Source: Anaerostipes caccae L1-92 (GTDB lineage: Bacteria; Bacillota; Clostridia; Lachnospirales; Lachnospiraceae). Taken from it: a stretch of 64,000 nt of DNA. Positions 46,985 through 58,890 of the stretch are shown in pieces. Location: NCBI RefSeq assembly GCF_014467075.1, contig NZ_AP023027.1:2669501-2733500 (forward strand), in the 5' to 3' direction. Position 1 is the first letter of the stretch, and every line of letters starts with the position of its first letter. The notes below the pieces were generated by a model. That model did no database searches, was not told where the DNA came from, and was given only the letters and a program-made list of their open reading frames with translations. The translations under genes and the position numbers were made by a program.

Positions 46985-49624
46985 TTATTTTACAAGCTGA
47001 CCCAGACGTTCTTCCACTTTTTCAAGCATCTGCCGGTATTTTGAAAGCTTTTCTTTCTCTTCTTCTACTTTTTGTTCCGGTGCTTTGCTTAAGAAACGTT
47101 CGTTATTGAGCATGCCTTCGCACCGCTTGATCTCTCCGCCTAATTTCTTCTGTTCTTTTTTCAGTCTCTCAATTTCTTTTTCAATGTCCACAAGCTCCGC
47201 AAACGGCATATAGATCACGGCATCCGGGACCATCGTGGATACGGCATCCTCCGCAATCCCTTCTCTGTCCGCCCGCACAGCTACTTCGCTTGCGTAACCC
47301 AGGGTTCCAAAGAAGACCTTCCCCTGTTCAAAGATGTCTCTTACATCTTCATTTTCAGAGACAACAAATACTTTTGCTTTCTTTTTCGGGGATACGTTCA
47401 TCTCGGCACGTATATTCCGGATTCCCCTCACCGCTTCTTTCATGAGTTCCACTGCAGCTTCTTCCCGGGCAAAGCTGTATTCCTCTCTGTATTCCGGCCA
47501 GGATGCCAGCATAATGGATTCTTCCCCTGTCAGATTGCAGTAGATCTCCTCTGTGATAAACGGCATGAATGGATGAAGCAGCTTCAGTGATTCGGAAAGC
47601 ACCTTTTTCAGCGTCCACAAAGCTGCGGCTTTCGTGTTGTCTTCATCGTTATAGAGACGCGGTTTCACCATCTCGATATACCAGTCACAGAATTCTTCCC
47701 ATATAAAGTCATTGAGCTTCTGTACGGCAATTCCCAGCTCATACTTGTCCATATTATCCGTCACATCTTTGGCCAGAGTGTTGAATTTAGATAAAATCCA
47801 CCGGTCTGCGCTTGTCAGATCGGAAAGTTCCACATGAGAAAAGTCCGCCTGTTCAAAGTTCATCATCATGAAGCGGGATGCATTCCACACTTTATTGGCA
47901 AAATTCCGGCTGGCTTCCACACGCTCCATGTAAAAACGCATATCATTGCCCGGCGCATTTCCGGTGACCAGAGTAAATCTCAGCGCATCTGCCCCATACT
48001 GGCTGATGACTTCCAGAGGATCAATTCCGTTGCCCAGGGATTTGCTCATCTTTCTTCCTTTGTCGTCTCTCACGAGTCCGTGGATCAGTACCGTATCAAA
48101 CGGCGCTTTCCCTGTATGCTCATATCCGGAAAATACCATTCTGACAACCCAGAAAAAGATAATGTCATATCCGGTTACCAATACGTTGGTCGGGTAGAAA
48201 TAATCCAGTTCCTCCGTCTGTTCCGGCCAGCCTAACGTGGAAAACGGCCACAGCGCAGAACTGAACCAGGTATCCAGGGTATCCTCATCCTGAGTAAAGT
48301 GTGTGCATCCGCATTTTGGGCATACTTCCGGTTTTTCTTTTGCCACCACAGTTTCGCCGCACTCGTCACAGTAATATGCAGGAATCCTGTGTCCCCACCA
48401 GAGCTGTCTGGAGATACACCAGTCACGGATATTCTCAAGCCAGTGCAGATAGGTCTTTGTATAACGTTCCGGCACAAATTTAATGTCCCCGTTTTTAACC
48501 GCCTCGATGGCAGGCTTCGCGAGCTCATCCATCTTTACGAACCACTGGGGTTTAACCATCGGCTCGATGGTAGCTTTGCAGCGGTCATGGGTTCCGACGT
48601 TGTGCTCGTGTTCTTTTATTTTTACCAGATATCCCTGTTCTTCCAGATCTTTTACGATGGCTTTTCTCGCCTCATAACGCTCCATGCCCTCATATCTGCC
48701 GCCGTTTTCATTGATCGTGGCGTCATCGTTCATCACATTGATCACTGGGAGGCCATGCCGTCTTCCGACTTCAAAATCATTTGGATCATGGGCAGGAGTG
48801 ATCTTCACAGCACCGGTTCCAAACTCTTTGTCTACATATTCATCCGCCACGATCGGGATCTGTCTGCCGCAAAGCGGAAGCTCCAGCATTTTCCCTACAA
48901 GATGTGTATATCTTTCATCGTCCGGATGGACAGCCACCGCCGTATCTCCAAGCATTGTCTCGGGACGGGTAGTAGCAATCTCTAAATAATCATCGGTTCC
49001 CGCAACCGGATACTTGATATGCCAGAAATGACCTGCCTGGTCCACATGCTCAACTTCTGCGTCAGAAATTGAAGTCTGGCAGACCGGACACCAGTTGATG
49101 ATCCTGGACCCTTTGTATATATAGCCTTTTTCATATAACTTGATAAAGACCTCTTCCACTGCTTTGGAACAGCCCTCATCCATCGTAAAACGCTCTCTGT
49201 CCCAGTCACAGGCAGAACCCAGCTTCTTTAACTGGCTGACGATTGTGCCGCCGTACTCTTCCTTCCACTCCCAGGCTCTCTCAAGAAACTTCTCTCTTCC
49301 CAGATCTTCCTTTTCAATGCCTTCCTCTTTCAGCGCCTCGATGATCTTGACTTCCGTTGCAATGCTGGCATGATCTGTTCCCGGCTGCCACAGTGTATTG
49401 TATCCCTGCATTTTTTTAAAGCGGATCAGGATATCCTGCAGCGTCTCATCCAGTGCATGCCCCATATGGAGTTTACCCGTAATATTGGGAGGCGGAATCA
49501 CAATCGTAAACGGTTTTTTGCTGTGATCCACTTCTGCATGAAAATATTTGTTGTCAAGCCACTTCTGATATAACCGGTCTTCAATCTCAGACGGGTTATA
49601 AGTCTTTTCCAATTCTTTACTCAT
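46985..49624 (-). CDS. valS: Valyl-tRNA synthetase
   Basis: 879 residues. HIGH-type HMGH in [18 protein letters not shown] in [10 protein letters not shown], an editing domain (about 180-340) with [14 protein letters not shown], and a C-terminal coiled coil with leucine/lysine heptads. Class I enzyme charging tRNA-Val. Only 24 nt separate it from the upstream gene, so no T-box leader fits. GTAGGAG precedes ATG. Confidence 0.98.
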
Positions 49625-49648
49625 ATCATATCTCCTACTTTTTATATT

Positions 49649-50644
49649 TTATTCTAAAAGATTGTTGCGGATCGCCCGCTCATGCTGCACCATTGCCTGC
49701 TCACAGATGTTCTGACGGCCGGACAGCCATTCCATCCGGTTGATCCTTTTCGGTATATCATAAATTGCCTTTGGGTAATAACACCAGGCCTGAGGTGCAT
49801 GCATTCCACACTGCTCCATGGCCGAGACAAACGTCTTCCTCTGGGCGGAAAGTTCTTCACTGCAATTTAATTCCGCTGCAACTTTAGCACAAAACTCAAA
49901 TAATTTCCACTGTTCTTCGGAAATATATCCAAACAGCACCTGATATTTCTCTCTGCAGAATTCAAGGTCATTGACAATCGTATCATACTCCGATTTGAGC
50001 CTCCGTCCCGAAGTCTCTTTGTGGTTTCTTACCATATGATACATTTTCTTTTTCTCTGCCGCTTTCTTCTTTCTTGTCCTGAGAATCAGAAGGATCACAG
50101 CCGCACCAAACACTGCTGCCGCTGCCGGCCAGAGAGAAACGCTCAGCCGGAGCTCAAAATAAAAAACTGCTGCCGCACCGAGTCCCGCGGCAGTCAGGGC
50201 CATGATCAGCGAAGACAGAAAATAGGCCCTCCTGTTGATGAACTTTCCATGAAATTCCCTCTCTTTTCTTTTCAGATCACGTTCTTCATCTTCCTGGACT
50301 GAAATTTCCTTCTCGATCTGTTTTTTTTCACCCTCCAGGGATTGGATACGGGACAAACCCTGTCTTATTTCCTCTTCCCTCTCCCAGAGGGGCAGAAATT
50401 CCTCATCGGAGACTCGTCCGCCTGCGGAATCATAAAAAATCCTGGCAAAGATGCGGTTGTATTTTCTGGCTTCCTCACTGATCAGCTTTGCTTCTTCACC
50501 GGAAAGCTTTTCCATGATCTCGATATCTTCCTTCTGCTCCAGAATATAAGACACCTCATCTTCATACATTTCCACAAAACGCCGGTTTAATTCCATCCGT
50601 TTTTTCTGATATTCAATTTCAGACAATCTCTCTTCTGTACTCAT
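49649..50644 (-). CDS. Coiled-coil membrane protein of the DUF5716/DUF5717 cluster
   Basis: 331 residues. The long charged coiled coil (1-135, Glu/Lys rich) is followed by two membrane helices (140-163 and 171-190, Ala rich) and a soluble helical C-terminus with several cysteines. The start lies within the 3' end of the previous gene (26-nt overlap). It is the fourth gene of a tight cluster and is followed 24 nt on by valS. I do not recognise the family; a membrane anchor for the complex is plausible. Confidence 0.7.
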   Translation of the reverse strand: MSTEERLSEIEYQKKRMELNRRFVEMYEDEVSYILEQKEDIEIMEKLSGEEAKLISEEARKYNRIFARIFYDSAGGRVSDEEFLPLWEREEEIRQGLSRIQSLEGEKKQIEKEISVQEDEERDLKRKEREFHGKFINRRAYFLSSLIMALTAAGLGAAAVFYFELRLSVSLWPAAAAVFGAAVILLILRTRKKKAAEKKKMYHMVRNHKETSGRRLKSEYDTIVNDLEFCREKYQVLFGYISEEQWKLFEFCAKVAAELNCSEELSAQRKTFVSAMEQCGMHAPQAWCYYPKAIYDIPKRINRMEWLSGRQNICEQAMVQHERAIRNNLLE

Positions 50645-51419
50645 TTTTCCACCGTTCCAGCATCGACCAGGTAAGCCTTCTGGTCATCAGGTCATCGGGT
50701 TTCTTTCTGTGATAGCCAATCTTTTTCAGTGCTGTGGATTCCTCGCTTCCGGAAAACCGTTCCTCCATAGCTGAGATATTTTCATGGATCTCTCTCAGCT
50801 GTTCTTCTGTAAAAGAAAGCGCTCTGCCGTCTTCCAAAAACTTCTGGTAATCTCCCTGCATATAAGAGACTATGAAATATGCTTCCTGGCATTTCTTGTT
50901 CTCTTTCAGGCGGCAGCTCCTTTTAAAAAACTCCTTCGCCTCCTGAAAACGGAACATCCGGGTCAGGCAGAGTCCCGTGTGATACAAAACTTCCTGCTGT
51001 TCCTTTGTCTTCAGCTGCATCAGACCGGAAAGCGATTTTTGATAGGCGTGATAAGCGCTCAGATATCTGGAATGTTTCAGATATAAGTCGCCGAGCATTT
51101 TGTGCTTTCTCACAGAGGAATATAGATAGGCCGTGCGCATCTGCTGGACAAGCATTCTCTGCTCGGGAACCGTAAAATAATTCCGGTAACCGATAATATG
51201 CTCCAGCTGCTTCTTTGTCTCCTCTTCTGCCGGCAGGACCAGACCAAGTTCTTCTTCGATCCACTCTCTCATCCCTTCCGGGATTCCTTCTGTCAGAAAA
51301 TATAAATACTGTCCTGAAATAATATAACATAATTCTTCATAGGAAGAAATGGTCTGTCCAAAGGAATTCAGCGTGTAAGTCCGCCTGCTCTCCTCTGTCT
51401 CACACAATACCATTCTCAT
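50619..51419 (-). CDS. Helical-repeat (TPR-like) protein of the DUF5716/DUF5717 cluster
   Basis: 266 residues from ATG 51419 (GGAGGGG 6 nt upstream, ATGA overlap with the DUF5716-like gene); a longer in-frame reading lies inside that gene and is unlikely. Residues about 115-215 carry repeated helix pairs such as YLKHSRYLSAYHAYQKSL and CLTRMFRFQEAKEFFKRS, which look TPR-like. No membrane segment. It probably mediates protein contact within the cluster's complex. Confidence 0.72.
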   Translation of the reverse strand: MRMVLCETEESRRTYTLNSFGQTISSYEELCYIISGQYLYFLTEGIPEGMREWIEEELGLVLPAEEETKKQLEHIIGYRNYFTVPEQRMLVQQMRTAYLYSSVRKHKMLGDLYLKHSRYLSAYHAYQKSLSGLMQLKTKEQQEVLYHTGLCLTRMFRFQEAKEFFKRSCRLKENKKCQEAYFIVSYMQGDYQKFLEDGRALSFTEEQLREIHENISAMEERFSGSEESTALKKIGYHRKKPDDLMTRRLTWSMLERWKNEYRREIV

Positions 51420-52468
51420 GGCTGTCCCCTCCTCTCCCATGAAATTACCTGCTGGAATACCTGGTATGTAGAAGGATATAATGTCCCAAACCCCAGATCC
51501 GTGATTTTGATTCTGCACTTTGTCTCCCCGGTGCACTCGGCTTCAATCTTCAGCTTTGTAGAGCGTCCCGGACGTTTTTTAAGCCCTTTTAAGGAAATTG
51601 GAAACCTCATTCTGTCACCTTTCCCGGGAAACAGGGGTTTGATCTCCACAGGAATGGATGCCGCTGTCTCAACCAGTACCGTCATATTTCCCCGGCTCTC
51701 AAACCATGGCTTTCCACCCTTTATGACCGGCAGAAATTCTTCTTTTCCGTGGTTCCATACCATGGCACCGATCTGATACATCATAACCGTGTCGGTAAGA
51801 ATCACGGCAGAGTCAAGGTCAGCCGCATTTTTTCTTCCCAGCAGACAGACGGCCCCTGTCGCGTACACATGATCTCCCATAAACACACGCCGTCCCGCAC
51901 ACAGCTTTGCCGAAGCGCTTTTCAGCCATCCACCGTCAAATCCTCTGCCGTACAAATAAACTAAAGAAGTAACCTCCTGGGACATAGCCTGAACAGCGGC
52001 GTTCTCAAATGCCATGTCTTTCTGATGGGGCAGCCGGGTGTTTCTCATAAAAGCAGAGTAGTCTTCTCTCTCTACGAGCAGCTGCCCATCCTGCTTTTTC
52101 ACCAGATAGTAAAACAATCTCTGGCCGGAATAGTCAAACAGCCCCACAGCCCCCTGTTCAAGCTGTTCCTTTCGGTCCCCGGCAAGTCCCAGAAAAGCCT
52201 CCTCCTTCGTAAACAGCCTGAGCTGTTCCTCCGAAAACCCCAGCTCTTTTCTAAGCTCCGCGGCTTTTGACGCCAGGTCCTCCTCCGGGTCCTCCAAAAT
52301 AACGCCCATAAACAGATTGGACGTATCCGCATGCTTTTCCGATTCTGCACGCACATAATCCGCCCAGTCCCCGGAAAGCTTTTTCGGTTCTTCTTCCACG
52401 ATCTTTCCGTCCGTTACGGAACACTGATATATCATTTCCCGCTCTATCTGTATGCCTATTTTCATCAT
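51416..52468 (-). CDS. Hsp70/actin-like protein, DUF5716 type
   Basis: 350 residues. The N-terminus MKIGIQIER could be a first phosphate strand. Mid-protein EEAFLGL and AVGLFDYSGQ (107-116) parallel the Hsp70 EPTAAAL and VFDLGGG segments. SLVYLYGRGFDGGW (168-181) with GDHVYATGA (198-206) parallel the adenosine loop and the DEAVAYGA helix. The Gly-rich phosphate-2 loop is degenerate, so ATP use is uncertain. The C-terminal 130 residues are beta rich. The DUF5716 name is from memory. ATGA overlaps on both sides show strict coupling. Confidence 0.72.
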   Translation of the reverse strand: MMKIGIQIEREMIYQCSVTDGKIVEEEPKKLSGDWADYVRAESEKHADTSNLFMGVILEDPEEDLASKAAELRKELGFSEEQLRLFTKEEAFLGLAGDRKEQLEQGAVGLFDYSGQRLFYYLVKKQDGQLLVEREDYSAFMRNTRLPHQKDMAFENAAVQAMSQEVTSLVYLYGRGFDGGWLKSASAKLCAGRRVFMGDHVYATGAVCLLGRKNAADLDSAVILTDTVMMYQIGAMVWNHGKEEFLPVIKGGKPWFESRGNMTVLVETAASIPVEIKPLFPGKGDRMRFPISLKGLKKRPGRSTKLKIEAECTGETKCRIKITDLGFGTLYPSTYQVFQQVISWERRGQP

Positions 52469-55400
52469 AGATCCTCTGTCATCGGACGGATCAGATCCGT
52501 CATTGCTTTTTCATACGCGTAGATTTCCATTTCCATGGCTACGCTCTCCCTTTGTTTTTCCTTCAGCATGTGATTCAGCTGATAAAATCTTCCCTTCTGG
52601 TTCCTTCCGGAATGGTCAAGAAAGACGATATCTTTTCTCCTGCGTCTCTCTTCTCCCGGTGCTGTCACATAATAATCTGCCGACTCATCGGCAAAGATCA
52701 GAACTTCCGCCACATAATACCCCGGCAGCAGCTCTCTCATAGGAATCTCTCTGGCCGGCTCCGACCTGTTTTCCGCATAGTGAAATACCATGCCGCCTGC
52801 TTTCTCTCCCCTGTAAACTACATAAGTATAAGTATAGCACTCATATGGAAGAGGTATCTCCTCTTTATATTCTAAAAGCACCGGCAGGATACAGCGGCGG
52901 TCCTCCTGCCACTCTATGAGTTTTTTTATTCTTTCTCTGACTTCTTCTGACAATTCTTTATCTTTATAAAAATCCAGATAAGCCCACTGCCAGATCAGTT
53001 TGAGATTCCCCTGATCGATCAGCCTTCCGAGAATCGGATAAAACTCATCCGAAATATACACTCCTTCTTCATAAGACAGTTCTGCAAACTGGCCCGCCAG
53101 CTTTTTTATCAGTTTTTTGTCTCTGGAATCCTTCTCAACATAAGATAAGAAGACAGGAAGGTCCTCCCACTCTGCTCCTTTCCCGACGGCCATATCAAGA
53201 AGCTGCTCCGTAAACTGCTGATCATATATTTTGTGTCTGTCTCCCTGTTTCCAGATCTTCCGCATCTGATCCAGGTCTCCCCTGAAAAAACGTTCCAGAT
53301 ATGCAAGAATCTCGCTGTTGTATACTTGTCCCTTAAAAACCGCAAGGCACATATCGATCAAAGTCTGCACCCTCTTCCGGCTCCGGGATGTGAGTTCATG
53401 CAGCACGACCTCTTTTAACGGCTCCGGGTCCATGAAATCAAATCCAAAGATCTCCATGCCTTTCATCGCCTCTTTGTAGTGGCGGCCGGCAATGAAATAC
53501 TCCAGCATCTGCTTACAGTTTTCCTCGGAGAGAAATTTCCACTGGACCATAGACAGCGCCTGCTCTAATTGTTCCTGCTCTCCATGCTTCCAGTAATAGT
53601 CCAGAAGCTTTTCAAATAATCTGTGCCGATATTCTTCTTTCAGGCTCTGACATTCAAGGACAGCCCTCACATCCGGAACATCTCCGGGTTCATATTCTGT
53701 CTTCTGTGCAAAGACCAGGCTTCTGCGGATCAAATATGCTTCATTTCTCCTGCCAAGCCCCGAAAATACAGCCTCCTCCTGCTCCCTCGTCCACAGTTTT
53801 GAAAATTCATAGTCCAGTGACAGATAGCGGTTGTCCTCCTGATCCATAAACACGACCAGAGGGTCGCTGTAGACCGTCACATAAACTTCCCCGTTTTCCA
53901 GAGAAACATTCTGAACTTCTTTTAACTCCTGATGATAGACGGCGGCCTTTTCCACCGCCGGATTCCTGCAGATCAATTTCTGCTTTGCCATAATCCCTGC
54001 GATTCCGGCCCTGCCTTTCATCCCTTCCAAAAGGCGGTCAAAGAAGGCCCTGTAAAGAATAAACAGATTAGAATTGATTCTGCCTTCTGCCAGCTGTTCC
54101 AAGAGAAATTCTTCAATCTGCGGCTCAAAAGATGGAAATACTGCCTCATATTTTCGCCGGTTCTTAACAAGATTGGCATACAGGTAAGCCCTCTCCCGGC
54201 TGCTTAAACTGTTGCTGTACGAAAAATACAGCAGTACATTCTTCTCAAGATACGGATATCGGTCTTTTGGAATCGTACGAAGGTAAGATTCCTGGAGTCC
54301 GATCATCTGAATCCCCGCCCGGACAGCTTTTTTAAAATATATATGATAACACTCATCGGTACAGTTTCCCCGGATCAGCATAGAGCAGATCGCCTGGAGC
54401 CCTTCCTTTGACTCCTCTCTCTGAAAGGACAGTATCAAATCAAAAAGCAGCTCCTCCGAAAATCCTTTGTCTTTCAGCACAAGACCGTAAATATGTTTTT
54501 TCATGCTTTTCCCAAACAGGTCCCTGCAAATGCCGAAATGAATGATCTCTCTCTCAAAATCAGTGATCTTTTTTGCCCTGCTGTGATCCTGGTTCCAAAT
54601 GCTGACGGCCTCAAACCATAAAAAGCTGCTGCACCGGCCTGTATCATAAACCTCTTTTATCTTCTGAAGCTGAAGTCCGAAATCATATGCCAGCTCTTCG
54701 TCAAGATAAATCAGCATCCACAGCAGATATCCCTTGTGATCGTCCGCTTTCTGAAAAAGCTCATAAATCCGGTCTTTTGCATACTCTGTCTGATCCGGTG
54801 TCTTTAAATAAAGTGCTTTCAAATATAAATAATAGCCATAGTAAAAAGGATCTGACTGAACCTCACTCATATTCGGCTCAAGTCTTGCAAAGCCTCTCTC
54901 GATTGCTTCCTCTGCGCCGAGAACAATATGACAGTGCAGGTTTAAGAGAGTCCTCAGTATCTCTAAGGATGCCTCTCCCTCCATCTGTGCGGTCAGATTC
55001 ATTTCCTTTTCCGCAAACTCCGTGACATGACATCTGCCAAGACAAAATTCCATATACGCATCGAAAATCTGGTCGGACAGATTCCAGGCCCCTTCGTTTC
55101 TCTCTTTCTCTGCATTGAACAGGATGTCTGTCTGACAGCTGCTGTACGGGGCAGAAACCGTAAGAATTCCCCGGCTCTCTTCCCTAGCATCAGAAAACAG
55201 CACGGGAATGGTCAGTACCCCTTCCACAAAATCCTCTTCTGAAAATTCTGTCTTTTGCAGAGACAGAAACGTGGAATCCAGGCGGATCTTCCCCTGGACA
55301 AAACCGCTGCCCTCTTTGTAAATCTTCACGTACAGAGGCTCAACCGCATTCACCCGACGGATCTCATACGCATCCTTTTCCGGTCTCAGCACCGCAGGTT

Positions 55401-55599
55401 CTTTTGCCCCGATACAGATCAAAAACTCTTCAAAGATCTGGCCCCGGTTTCGGCCGAGCAGGAGCTGATGATAGATTTCCTTTTCCCTGGAATTCTCCTC
55501 CAAATACTCATTTTTGAAGGCCTCAGAAAAAAAGAGGGCCTTTGCCCGCTGTTCATCTTCCTGTACAATTTGTATGAACTGCTTCATCTTCTCTGTCAT
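52465..55599 (-). CDS. Large cluster protein, DUF5717 type
   Basis: 1044 residues with no signal peptide or membrane helix. Residues about 1-170 are helical then beta-rich (VKIYKEGSGFVQGKIRLD). The long middle (180-900) is helical with TPR/HEAT-like spacing. The last 130 residues are again beta rich (YTYTYVVYRGEK, YYVAEVLIFADESADYYVT). I recall this architecture as DUF5717 in Lachnospiraceae, always near DUF5716; that is memory, not a search. It heads the operon that continues to valS, folC and the TPR gene. Confidence 0.75.
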   Translation of the reverse strand: MTEKMKQFIQIVQEDEQRAKALFFSEAFKNEYLEENSREKEIYHQLLLGRNRGQIFEEFLICIGAKEPAVLRPEKDAYEIRRVNAVEPLYVKIYKEGSGFVQGKIRLDSTFLSLQKTEFSEEDFVEGVLTIPVLFSDAREESRGILTVSAPYSSCQTDILFNAEKERNEGAWNLSDQIFDAYMEFCLGRCHVTEFAEKEMNLTAQMEGEASLEILRTLLNLHCHIVLGAEEAIERGFARLEPNMSEVQSDPFYYGYYLYLKALYLKTPDQTEYAKDRIYELFQKADDHKGYLLWMLIYLDEELAYDFGLQLQKIKEVYDTGRCSSFLWFEAVSIWNQDHSRAKKITDFEREIIHFGICRDLFGKSMKKHIYGLVLKDKGFSEELLFDLILSFQREESKEGLQAICSMLIRGNCTDECYHIYFKKAVRAGIQMIGLQESYLRTIPKDRYPYLEKNVLLYFSYSNSLSSRERAYLYANLVKNRRKYEAVFPSFEPQIEEFLLEQLAEGRINSNLFILYRAFFDRLLEGMKGRAGIAGIMAKQKLICRNPAVEKAAVYHQELKEVQNVSLENGEVYVTVYSDPLVVFMDQEDNRYLSLDYEFSKLWTREQEEAVFSGLGRRNEAYLIRRSLVFAQKTEYEPGDVPDVRAVLECQSLKEEYRHRLFEKLLDYYWKHGEQEQLEQALSMVQWKFLSEENCKQMLEYFIAGRHYKEAMKGMEIFGFDFMDPEPLKEVVLHELTSRSRKRVQTLIDMCLAVFKGQVYNSEILAYLERFFRGDLDQMRKIWKQGDRHKIYDQQFTEQLLDMAVGKGAEWEDLPVFLSYVEKDSRDKKLIKKLAGQFAELSYEEGVYISDEFYPILGRLIDQGNLKLIWQWAYLDFYKDKELSEEVRERIKKLIEWQEDRRCILPVLLEYKEEIPLPYECYTYTYVVYRGEKAGGMVFHYAENRSEPAREIPMRELLPGYYVAEVLIFADESADYYVTAPGEERRRRKDIVFLDHSGRNQKGRFYQLNHMLKEKQRESVAMEMEIYAYEKAMTDLIRPMTEDL

Positions 55600-55765: not shown

Positions 55766-56854
55766 ATGTCAGAAAAGAAGCAAGTCTTCCACGGAAGCGA
55801 CTTAGAAAAAATAGAAGAAATATATGGGATTAAAAAAGAAGACATCATTCCTTTCGGAGGCAACGTAAATCCCCTCGGGATCTCCCCGCTGTTTCGGGAA
55901 AGCCTGATCCGCCATGTAGATGCTGTCTGCACGTATCCCGACCGCGACTACAAGTCCCTGCGCTCCACACTGAGCCTGTATGCCCGGATTCCTATGGAGC
56001 ATATCATTGTCGGAAACGGAGTGACAGAGCTGATCAGCCTGACCATGCACCTTCTCCGTCCGAAGAAAGCTCTGCTGCTTTCCCCGACTTACTCTGAATA
56101 CATGCGGGAAATTTCTATGATCGGCGGCACCTGTCTGGAGTATAACCTGAAGGAATCCTCGGACTTTTGCCTGGACATCGAAGACTTGAAACACTCCCTC
56201 ACCGATGATGTGGATTTATTCGCATTCTGCAATCCAAACAATCCCACATCCAGTGCATTAAACAAGGACCAAATCTCGGAGATCCTTTCCCACTGTAAAA
56301 AGCACGGCATCTTTGTTTTGGCAGACGAGACTTACGCAGAGTTTGCCCCGGATATAGACGATGTCACTGCCGTACCCCTGACCCGAAAGTTTGACAATCT
56401 GTTTGTCCTGCGGGGAACTTCAAAGTTCTTTGCTGCACCGGGCATCCGCCTCGGCTACGGGATCAGCGGAAATGCGAATTTTATCAGGGCAGTGGAAGAC
56501 AAAAAAAATCCATGGAGCATCAATACTCTTGCAGCGCTTGCAGGAGAAGCAATGTTCATGGATACAGACTATATTAAAAAGACGAAGGCTTACATCGCAG
56601 AAGAGCGCAGAAAATGTACGGACAGACTTTCAGGCACCCCTGCTTTTAAGATTTATCCAGCCTATGCCAATTTCCTTCTTGTCCGGCTGACGGACGGCAC
56701 CACTTCTCATGAGATGTTTGAACGCTGTATCAAGAAAGGGCTGATGATCCGTGACTGTTCAAGTTTTGAAGGGCTTGACGGGGAATATATCAGATTCTGC
56801 TTCCGAAAAGAAGAGGAAAATAATGCTTTGCTGGATTCTCTTCTGCAAGTATGA
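55766..56854 (+). CDS. Class I/II aminotransferase (HisC/CobD-like)
   Basis: 362 residues. PLP-fold signatures: FCNPNNPT, LADETYAEF and the PLP-lysine region RGTSKFFAAPGIRLGYG near 222. The N-terminus GGNVNPLGISP is like histidinol-phosphate aminotransferase and threonine-phosphate decarboxylase CobD. With no his or cob genes nearby the substrate stays open. AAAGGTG precedes ATG. It converges with the TDT transporter gene (2-nt gap). Confidence 0.88.
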   Translation: MSEKKQVFHGSDLEKIEEIYGIKKEDIIPFGGNVNPLGISPLFRESLIRHVDAVCTYPDRDYKSLRSTLSLYARIPMEHIIVGNGVTELISLTMHLLRPKKALLLSPTYSEYMREISMIGGTCLEYNLKESSDFCLDIEDLKHSLTDDVDLFAFCNPNNPTSSALNKDQISEILSHCKKHGIFVLADETYAEFAPDIDDVTAVPLTRKFDNLFVLRGTSKFFAAPGIRLGYGISGNANFIRAVEDKKNPWSINTLAALAGEAMFMDTDYIKKTKAYIAEERRKCTDRLSGTPAFKIYPAYANFLLVRLTDGTTSHEMFERCIKKGLMIRDCSSFEGLDGEYIRFCFRKEEENNALLDSLLQV

Positions 56855-57798: not shown

Positions 57799-58890
57799 CT
57801 AGTTTTCATATAGATCTTTCAGGATCGCCCCGGCACTTTTCTTCTGATAGCCTTCCGGGTCTTCCATAATATGATTTCCCGAAATATCCCATCTCATCTG
57901 TCCGTATTGGGTAAGATAACTCCTTCCCCTGGAACAGTCCGGATATCTTGTGTACCATTTTCTATGATACTTTTTCATATATTTTCTTGCAAGTGCCAGT
58001 GCCTGGCTTTTTTTCTTTCCTCCCGGTGTGGCCGTTCCGGAAATCTGCACTCCTTTCGGACTGGAATGAACCAAAACGACACTGCCGTCTTTACAGGAGC
58101 CGATGACGATCCATACGTGGCCGCAGCTTGAAGATCCCATAATGTCTCCTGCTTTGTAGTCTGTCACCTTACTCTTGCTTTTATATGTTCCCCAGCCTTT
58201 TTGGGCAAACAATTCAGGCTGGTCTTTTGCTTTCCGCACATAACCGCCTCTGCCCGGTACCGTATTTCTGATATTATACACGGTCCACCCGACGAAGCCG
58301 GAGCAGTCCAGGCCTTTTCCTCTGCGGTAGCGGTACTTTTTATAATTATACCCCGAATTCTGCGACAGGAAAAATCGGTTCCACTCCCCGTTCAGTCCGA
58401 TCCGCTTCCCGTCTTTCCCGGTTCCGGTATCGGCTTTATTCCATCCTCCGCCCCAGATGTATAAGGTGGTGCCCACCGGGGCTGCGGCTGTTTTCAGAAA
58501 ATTTTTAATAGTAGATTCTCCTCTGGCTGCCATCGATACTTTCACTGTTTTAGAAAATCTGCTGTAATATTTTTTCTTTTTGTATTTCCTGAAAGAACGG
58601 ACTTTAAAACAGTAATTGACCCCGGGCTTCAAGCCTTTGATCACATGTCTGGATGACTTTGAGACAGCTTTTTTTCTATACTTTTTCTTCGCTTTGTCGT
58701 ACAGATAAATCTCCGTCCCTGTGGCTCTTTTTCCCTTTACCCAGGACAGAACAATATTCCTTTTTACGCCGGTGGCCATCACTCCGGAAGGCTTCCCGGG
58801 TTTCTTCGATGCTCCCTGAATTTGTCTCTCTCCTCCTGCCCATACCAGCATCATACAGAGTGCTGTAAGCAGTATCCTCTTTGTTTTCAT
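57799..58890 (-). CDS. Secreted FN3 plus NlpC/P60-like protein
   Basis: 363 residues with a signal peptide (about 1-26), one fibronectin-III-like domain (30-120, ITY-like strands with GLKPGVNYCFKVRSF), then a cysteine-peptidase-like domain with nucleophile C196 in GLDCSGFVGW and H258 in SCGHVWIVIG. It should cleave or bind cell-wall peptides outside the membrane. The protein is very basic (many KKK runs). AGAGGAT lies before ATG. Confidence 0.85.
   Translation of the reverse strand: MKTKRILLTALCMMLVWAGGERQIQGASKKPGKPSGVMATGVKRNIVLSWVKGKRATGTEIYLYDKAKKKYRKKAVSKSSRHVIKGLKPGVNYCFKVRSFRKYKKKKYYSRFSKTVKVSMAARGESTIKNFLKTAAAPVGTTLYIWGGGWNKADTGTGKDGKRIGLNGEWNRFFLSQNSGYNYKKYRYRRGKGLDCSGFVGWTVYNIRNTVPGRGGYVRKAKDQPELFAQKGWGTYKSKSKVTDYKAGDIMGSSSCGHVWIVIGSCKDGSVVLVHSSPKGVQISGTATPGGKKKSQALALARKYMKKYHRKWYTRYPDCSRGRSYLTQYGQMRWDISGNHIMEDPEGYQKKSAGAILKDLYEN

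Follow-up and report, generated by a model that had tools for sequence, protein, structure and literature searches.

A four-gene cluster of Anaerostipes caccae L1-92 as a probable membrane-tethered, motorless remainder of a multi-Hsp70 machine

Hsp70 and actin have a common fold, and Ssz1 and Hsp110 are eukaryotic precedents for regulation by nucleotide binding without hydrolysis. Neighbourhoods of HSP70 and GrpE genes with FNIII-DnaJ or FNIII-TPR proteins have been described around GAP1-N2 GTPase systems (Kaur et al. 2020, PMC7159879); in the section of that paper concerned, a subset has a second Hsp70-domain protein, and vWA and transmembrane (TM) proteins appear in other themes. Here, we analysed a cluster of four genes, encoding a DUF5717 protein, a DUF5716 protein, a TPR protein and a coiled-coil protein, in a stretch of 64,000 nucleotides of the Anaerostipes caccae L1-92 genome (hereafter the window; contig NZ_AP023027.1, positions 2,669,501 to 2,733,500), this genome being a single contig of 3.59 Mb. 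We found no literature on the function of DUF5716 or DUF5717 (the one paper found under either name, PMC8115291, concerns cancer, to judge from its title), and no paper on the cluster within the literature on multi-part Hsp70 operons, Lachnospiraceae DnaK-like proteins, signature proteins, pseudo-Hsp70s or transposon sequencing (Tn-seq). With a probability of roughly 60%, we consider that the proteins of the cluster form a complex tethered to the membrane, the non-catalytic part left over from a dedicated machine of several Hsp70s. The computed elements behind this reading are the fold of a 428-amino-acid (aa) DUF5716 homolog, its descent, the loss of the phosphate-2 motif, the absence of the subunit HspC, purifying selection and a DUF5716-TPR fusion.

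The predicted model of the 428-aa homolog comprises an Hsp70 nucleotide-binding domain (NBD) and a beta substrate-binding domain (SBD), and it was matched to DnaK by both Foldseek and VIA, which bears out the Hsp70/actin fold that a first-pass annotation of the window had proposed for DUF5716. The fold of the window protein (350 aa) is read from this model, part of the N-lobe being missing from the window protein. The alpha-helical lid is absent from DUF5716, which terminates with the beta domain. In Pfam, the DUF5716 and DUF5717 proteins of the window are members of their families above the gathering score; NCBIfam gave no match at E 1 for either, and its matches to the TPR and coiled-coil proteins were weak and below the cut-off. 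A sequence search of the PDB returned nothing for the DUF5716 profile and a best E value of only 0.08 for DUF5717, and a protein search with the single window DUF5716 sequence returned 8 clusters only, one of them 79% identical and named Anaerostipes rhamnosivorans.

In sister families, the relatives of these genes belong to a longer operon with several Hsp70 paralogs, designated HspA to HspD. The genes for HspA, a coil-type GrpE protein (GrpE-coil), HspB and HspC were found together in 34 of 72 classified loci (33 genomes), 32 of the 34 with a labelled DUF5717; it should be noted that the 72 loci include second pieces of single genomes (e.g., L188 and L265 in our locus numbering) and loci cut by contig ends. 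The loci L226, L250 and L258 carry, in one direction, DUF5717 (as one or two open reading frames, ORFs), HspA, GrpE-coil, HspB, HspC, HspD, TPR and coil genes, and L260 has an unlabelled 311-aa ORF where the TPR gene stands in the other three. A GrpE domain was detected in 32 of the 33 GrpE-coil proteins scanned (of 37), and a vWA domain in all 28 HspD proteins scanned (of 29), placed behind the HSP70-matching part, where DnaK has its lid. In genome G471, Pfam recognises HSP70 in HspA, HspC and HspD, HspB matches both DUF5716_C (E 1.5e-26) and HSP70 (E 1e-17), and HspC ends in a C-terminal DUF5716_C match (E 7e-10). Family f82 has 12 loci with DUF5717 and no labelled Hsp there, HspC being located elsewhere in 9 of the 12 genomes. 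Beside the G471 operon (L199:2700-13400), several ORFs look CRISPR-associated by eye and adjoin a repeat array.

DUF5716 is a descendant of the HspB subunit of this multi-Hsp70 operon. In a tree of 78 sequences and 502 columns, in which no actin was included, DUF5716 falls within HspB (ultrafast bootstrap, UFBoot, 99) with the HspB of genome G441 as its sister (100), and HspB and DUF5716 together form the sister group of HspC (100); the position in the operon agrees with the placement of DUF5716 in HspB. Thus, of the chaperone or cytoskeletal machine initially suggested, the chaperone ancestry is supported, as indicated by the beta substrate-binding domain and the Hsp70 paralog group, and an actin cytoskeleton is not supported. 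In G441 itself (L179, L201), HspD and the TPR gene are each present as two ORFs, through either decay or an assembly error.

Of 24 genomes from other families, 20 of which belong to one family, 20 gave a match of at least 859 bits with the HspC profile. HspC is absent from all 16 Lachnospiraceae genomes searched, where the best scores were 157–186 bits and corresponded, in 15 of the 16, to DnaK-like frames of 620–646 aa. Among the matches listed for 60 Lachnospiraceae genomes, none combined the frame length of HspA, HspC or HspD with the corresponding score; a small number of longer frames, of 958–1328 aa, were also listed. Besides dnaK, the window genome has another dnaK-like gene and a single grpE, and one frame of 335 aa was taken to be MreB. 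The two DnaK-type genes of this genome lie near each other beside the lone grpE (C1:1531256-1532959 and 1534887-1536629).

Nucleotide-binding motifs were compared among 40 HspA, 38 HspB, 35 HspC, 30 HspD and 56 DUF5716 sequences, with the two DnaKs of the window genome as reference. HspA, HspC and HspD retain the phosphate-1, Glu and phosphate-2 motifs. The GGGT loop of phosphate-2 was found in none of the DUF5716 and none of the HspB sequences (0/56 and 0/38), and the column of the catalytic Glu is occupied mainly by His in DUF5716 (44/56). The phosphate-1 Asp column is retained in 84% of HspB and 96% of the 56 DUF5716 sequences, and the phosphate-1 motif is gone from the window DUF5716 and from those of all ten other Anaerostipes. 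In a survey of 146 rows (one genome entered twice, as L027 and L280; 25 rows flagged by the script), reading of the phosphate-1 starts by eye revealed 13 without Asp or Glu, namely 11 Anaerostipes, L284 and L286, while L285 has Glu.

The cluster is widespread in the family. DUF5716 is present in 145 and DUF5717 in 147 of 150 Lachnospiraceae genomes representing 150 genera, mostly in single copy; G318 and G380, two of the 16 Lachnospiraceae genomes searched for HspC, are without the cluster. At the level of the class, DUF5716 was found in 10 of 291 genomes, all Lachnospiraceae, and at the level of the order DUF5717 was found in 94 of 196. Class-level matches of the DUF5717 profile outside Lachnospiraceae (5 genomes, E 1e-10 to 8e-4) reached across only 81–155 of the 905 positions and were excluded from the count. 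The DUF5717 and DUF5716 sequence sets had been thinned by identity, and some sequences were left out for length or a missing ATG, in the motif comparison too.

Gene order was examined in 80 loci (L099-L178), mostly named Lachnospiraceae, which were collected in a single search based on eight close DUF5716 proteins (80 of 525 kept) and cover one part of the family. DUF5717 and DUF5716 were each present in 79 loci, the coil gene in 77 and the TPR gene in 76. The conserved unit expected from the first-pass annotation was recovered: all four genes are present in 74 of the 80 loci, in the same order and on one strand in 74/74, and the ten other Anaerostipes genomes share the same order from the cobD-like gene through valS (DUF5716 being present in 11/11 Anaerostipes, window genome included). 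The tight overlaps that had been emphasised are a feature of the window (4 nt for DUF5717/DUF5716, 4 nt, as ATGA, for DUF5716/TPR and 26 nt for TPR/coiled-coil) and of the genus, with a 26-nt TPR/coil overlap in each of the other ten genomes. They do not extend to the 80 loci, where the genes are mostly close but non-overlapping, with a median nearest-start gap of 17–21 nt and overlaps of 1–8 nt in only 3/78, 7/75 and 11/76 gene pairs.

The ratio of nonsynonymous to synonymous substitution rates (dN/dS) of the four cluster genes against two relatives was 0.03–0.11, as compared to 0.12–0.15 for folC and 0.02–0.03 for valS, with dS reaching 2.5, near saturation, against the second relative. The low ratio indicates that the degenerate DUF5716 gene is not a pseudogene. 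Within Anaerostipes (L288-L297 against window positions 46985-55599), DUF5716 and DUF5717 are 32–40% identical to the window proteins in 8 of 10 genomes, versus 84–87% for valS.

By homology to a predicted model, DUF5717 comprises one Ig-like domain, a helical solenoid into which a beta domain is inserted, and a C-terminal beta domain, in line with the helical/beta protein foreseen for this gene; the window protein is devoid of the first PapD/ASH-like domain of its ~1190-aa relatives. The two other assignments also proved sound, one through a TPR_2 match and the other through two hydrophobic segments in the coiled-coil protein, as expected of a membrane protein. Among the coil proteins of the 80 loci, 64 of 77 have two such segments, 12 have three and 1 has none. 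DUF5716 and TPR form a single ORF in five other Lachnospiraceae genomes (L195, L276-L279), so that the single complex proposed for all four products gains a physical link for this pair, the only one with fusion support. A contact between the PapD-like domain 1 of DUF5717 and the N-lobe of DUF5716, both lost in Anaerostipes, was considered and rejected, because L194, L284 and L285 combine a short DUF5716 with a full-length DUF5717. In P0051, DUF5717_N is joined to an AAA/ClpX-like part on one short contig, probably a chimeric assembly.

We propose that the ancestral machine would have consisted of three motif-intact Hsp70s (HspA, HspC and HspD, the last with vWA), HspB, GrpE-coil, DUF5717, TPR and, where it is recognised, the two-TM coiled-coil protein. 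In the remaining complex, the coiled-coil protein may serve as the anchor at the membrane and DUF5717 as a long scaffold, while the TPR protein would hold the pseudo-Hsp70. The latter may work independently of nucleotide, as a module for binding or as an adaptor, its task being binding and not an ATP cycle; it could retain clients or partners at the membrane, perhaps on behalf of the general DnaK. The chances appear to us evenly divided that the Lachnospiraceae swapped an ATP-driven four-Hsp70 machine for its dead subunit, a nucleotide-free membrane pseudo-chaperone, the motor having become a static scaffold through gene loss with the order kept.

Several observations weigh against such a motorless remainder. 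The tree branches are long, and the apparent loss of HspA, HspD and GrpE-coil in Lachnospiraceae was read from general HSP70 and GrpE searches, none of them made subunit by subunit. In other families, the coil gene was recognised, with a one-sequence model, in no more than 9 loci, which leaves few families to support its ancestral place; no J-domain appeared in Pfam scans of the operon proteins. Fusion support is limited to DUF5716-TPR, the DUF5717 model has a predicted template modelling score (pTM) of 0.58, and crude hydropathy gives one peak in 18/79 DUF5716 and 6/79 DUF5717 proteins as well. Conservation of the SBD (0.467) is in no clear excess over that of the NBD (0.450). A Glu two columns on from the catalytic position (51/56 DUF5716; 28/38 HspB) could be its shifted equivalent, and, since DUF5716 keeps the phosphate-1 Asp in 96% of the 56 sequences and a G-x-G in the adenosine motif, nucleotide binding without hydrolysis is possible.

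Such binding, for which Ssz1 and Hsp110 are the precedents, would make DUF5716 a co-chaperone that regulates the general DnaK, localised by the membrane complex. We regard this as unlikely, since the phosphate-1 Asp is lost in 11/11 Anaerostipes, L284 and L286, yet the Anaerostipes gene is under selection, and dnaK lies more than 1 Mb from the cluster in the window genome.

Less probable still is a role in conflict, as a defence or cell-suicide system like those of the HSP70/GrpE/FNIII-TPR type described with GAP1-N2 GTPases. The parts of the ancestral operon are similar (Hsp70s, a degenerate Hsp70, GrpE, beta-sandwich/solenoid, vWA and a TM protein) and the divergence of DUF5716 and DUF5717 relative to valS is fast, but GAP1-N2 was found in 0/20 genomes, with a control match in Corynebacterium glutamicum, and no PADLOC model was judged specific. 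Moreover, the cluster is near-universal, mostly single-copy and recurrent in place in Lachnospiraceae, which argues against a patchy conflict system. No TRAFAC GTPase was seen among the Pfam-scanned operon proteins, the flanking ORFs being scanned only in part. A PADLOC match of the window coiled-coil protein to LeoBC (E 3e-6) has no counterpart in the L099 homolog and was taken as coiled-coil similarity; matches to PDC-M61B (HspC, HspD), PrimPol, PDC-M71B and PDC-M16B (TPR2), all located in Hsp70 or TPR regions, were put down to general similarity.

An actin-like cytoskeletal or cell-envelope element, in which DUF5716 would polymerise at the membrane on its coiled-coil anchor, is the least probable, for despite the fold common to Hsp70 and actin, a membrane hairpin partner and a scaffold with a PapD/ASH-like domain, the fold relatives listed are Hsp70s, substrate-binding domain included, the sequence is placed among Hsp70 paralogs (in a tree without actin), phosphate-2 is missing, the ancestral operon has GrpE, and HSP70 outscores MreB for HspA, HspC and HspD of G471.

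All four ORFs of the initial annotation are present and lie on the minus strand; the Pfam matches, the recurring order and overlap and the dN/dS values show the cluster to be more than chance. Their coordinates are given below with those of the adjoining genes. For the TPR gene, the mechanical ORF opens at a GTG, at position 51536, and the ATG start is used here.

Table 1. Positions in the window of the cluster genes and of their two neighbours.
Feature	Positions	Strand	Remarks
DUF5717 scaffold protein (putative)	52465..55599	-	1044 aa; Pfam E 3e-152 (DUF5717 N), 7e-40 (DUF5717 C)
DUF5716, degenerate lidless Hsp70-like protein	51416..52468	-	350 aa; DUF5716_C, PF18980, E 9e-63
TPR protein	50619..51419 (from ATG)	-	266 aa; TPR_2 E 4e-7
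Coiled-coil protein, putative membrane anchor	49649..50644	-	331 aa; two hydropathy peaks, with starts at residues 142 and 169
valS, cluster neighbour	46985..49624	-	24-nt gap to the coiled-coil gene
HisC/CobD-like aminotransferase (presumed), divergent upstream neighbour	55766..56854	+	

The neighbourhood with valS is old but lineage-variable. In six genomes of other families, valS (69–74% identical) stands behind the cluster, directly or after one 120-aa ORF, and it does so in 10/10 other Anaerostipes. It adjoins the cluster in 0/80 of the loci L099-L178, a count that is not family-wide because these loci cover one part of Lachnospiraceae, and, among 17 other Lachnospiraceae loci, which were picked and not drawn, in six (L194, L196, L277, L279, L282, L286). 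On the other side, a cobD-like gene (41–50% identical) is divergent from DUF5717, adjacent or one ORF off, in 19 loci of other families; we take the window gene at this place to be a HisC/CobD-like aminotransferase. A single transcript running on to the TPR membrane gene that precedes spoIIA, as once thought, is not shown, because a gap of 144 nt separates folC from this gene. Scans of the window gave 15 promoter sites as compared to 17.9 in shuffles, and 18 terminators as compared to 12.2 (standard deviation 3.4), and neither result entered the interpretation. The protein at window positions 57799-58890 is secreted-looking by eye; its matches to fn3-like and NlpC/P60-like domains are weak and miss the Pfam cut-offs, with the single exception of an interferon-receptor fn3 model.

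Overall, DUF5716 and DUF5717, listed in Pfam as of unknown function, gain a fold, an origin, an ancestral operon and likely partners, and the cluster occurs in nearly every tested genus of a major gut-bacterial family. The gradation that leads from a multi-Hsp70 operon, GrpE and vWA parts included, to a probable motorless remainder opens the question of what a pseudo-Hsp70 does without the cycle, and the sister-family operon described here may be tractable for biochemistry.

The systems described around GAP1-N2 GTPases, as far as the section cited sets them out, share with our loci the combination of Hsp70, GrpE and a beta-sandwich/TPR protein, though this holds solely for the operon of the other families, and the beta-sandwich is taken from a Lachnospiraceae model. 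They differ in that our loci have no GAP1-N2 (0/20 genomes), no DnaJ domain in the Pfam scans, several Hsp70 paralogs in fixed order, and no motor found in the Lachnospiraceae cluster. Ssz1, an atypical Hsp70 of the ribosome-associated complex, has the J-protein Zuo1 as its partner, whereas DUF5716 is accompanied by DUF5717, the TPR protein and the membrane coil. Compared with the DnaK/Hsp70 family, DUF5716 is without the lid and the phosphate-2 loop, and the window copy also without phosphate-1, but it shares the NBD and the beta substrate-binding fold, and descends from this family via HspB/HspC.
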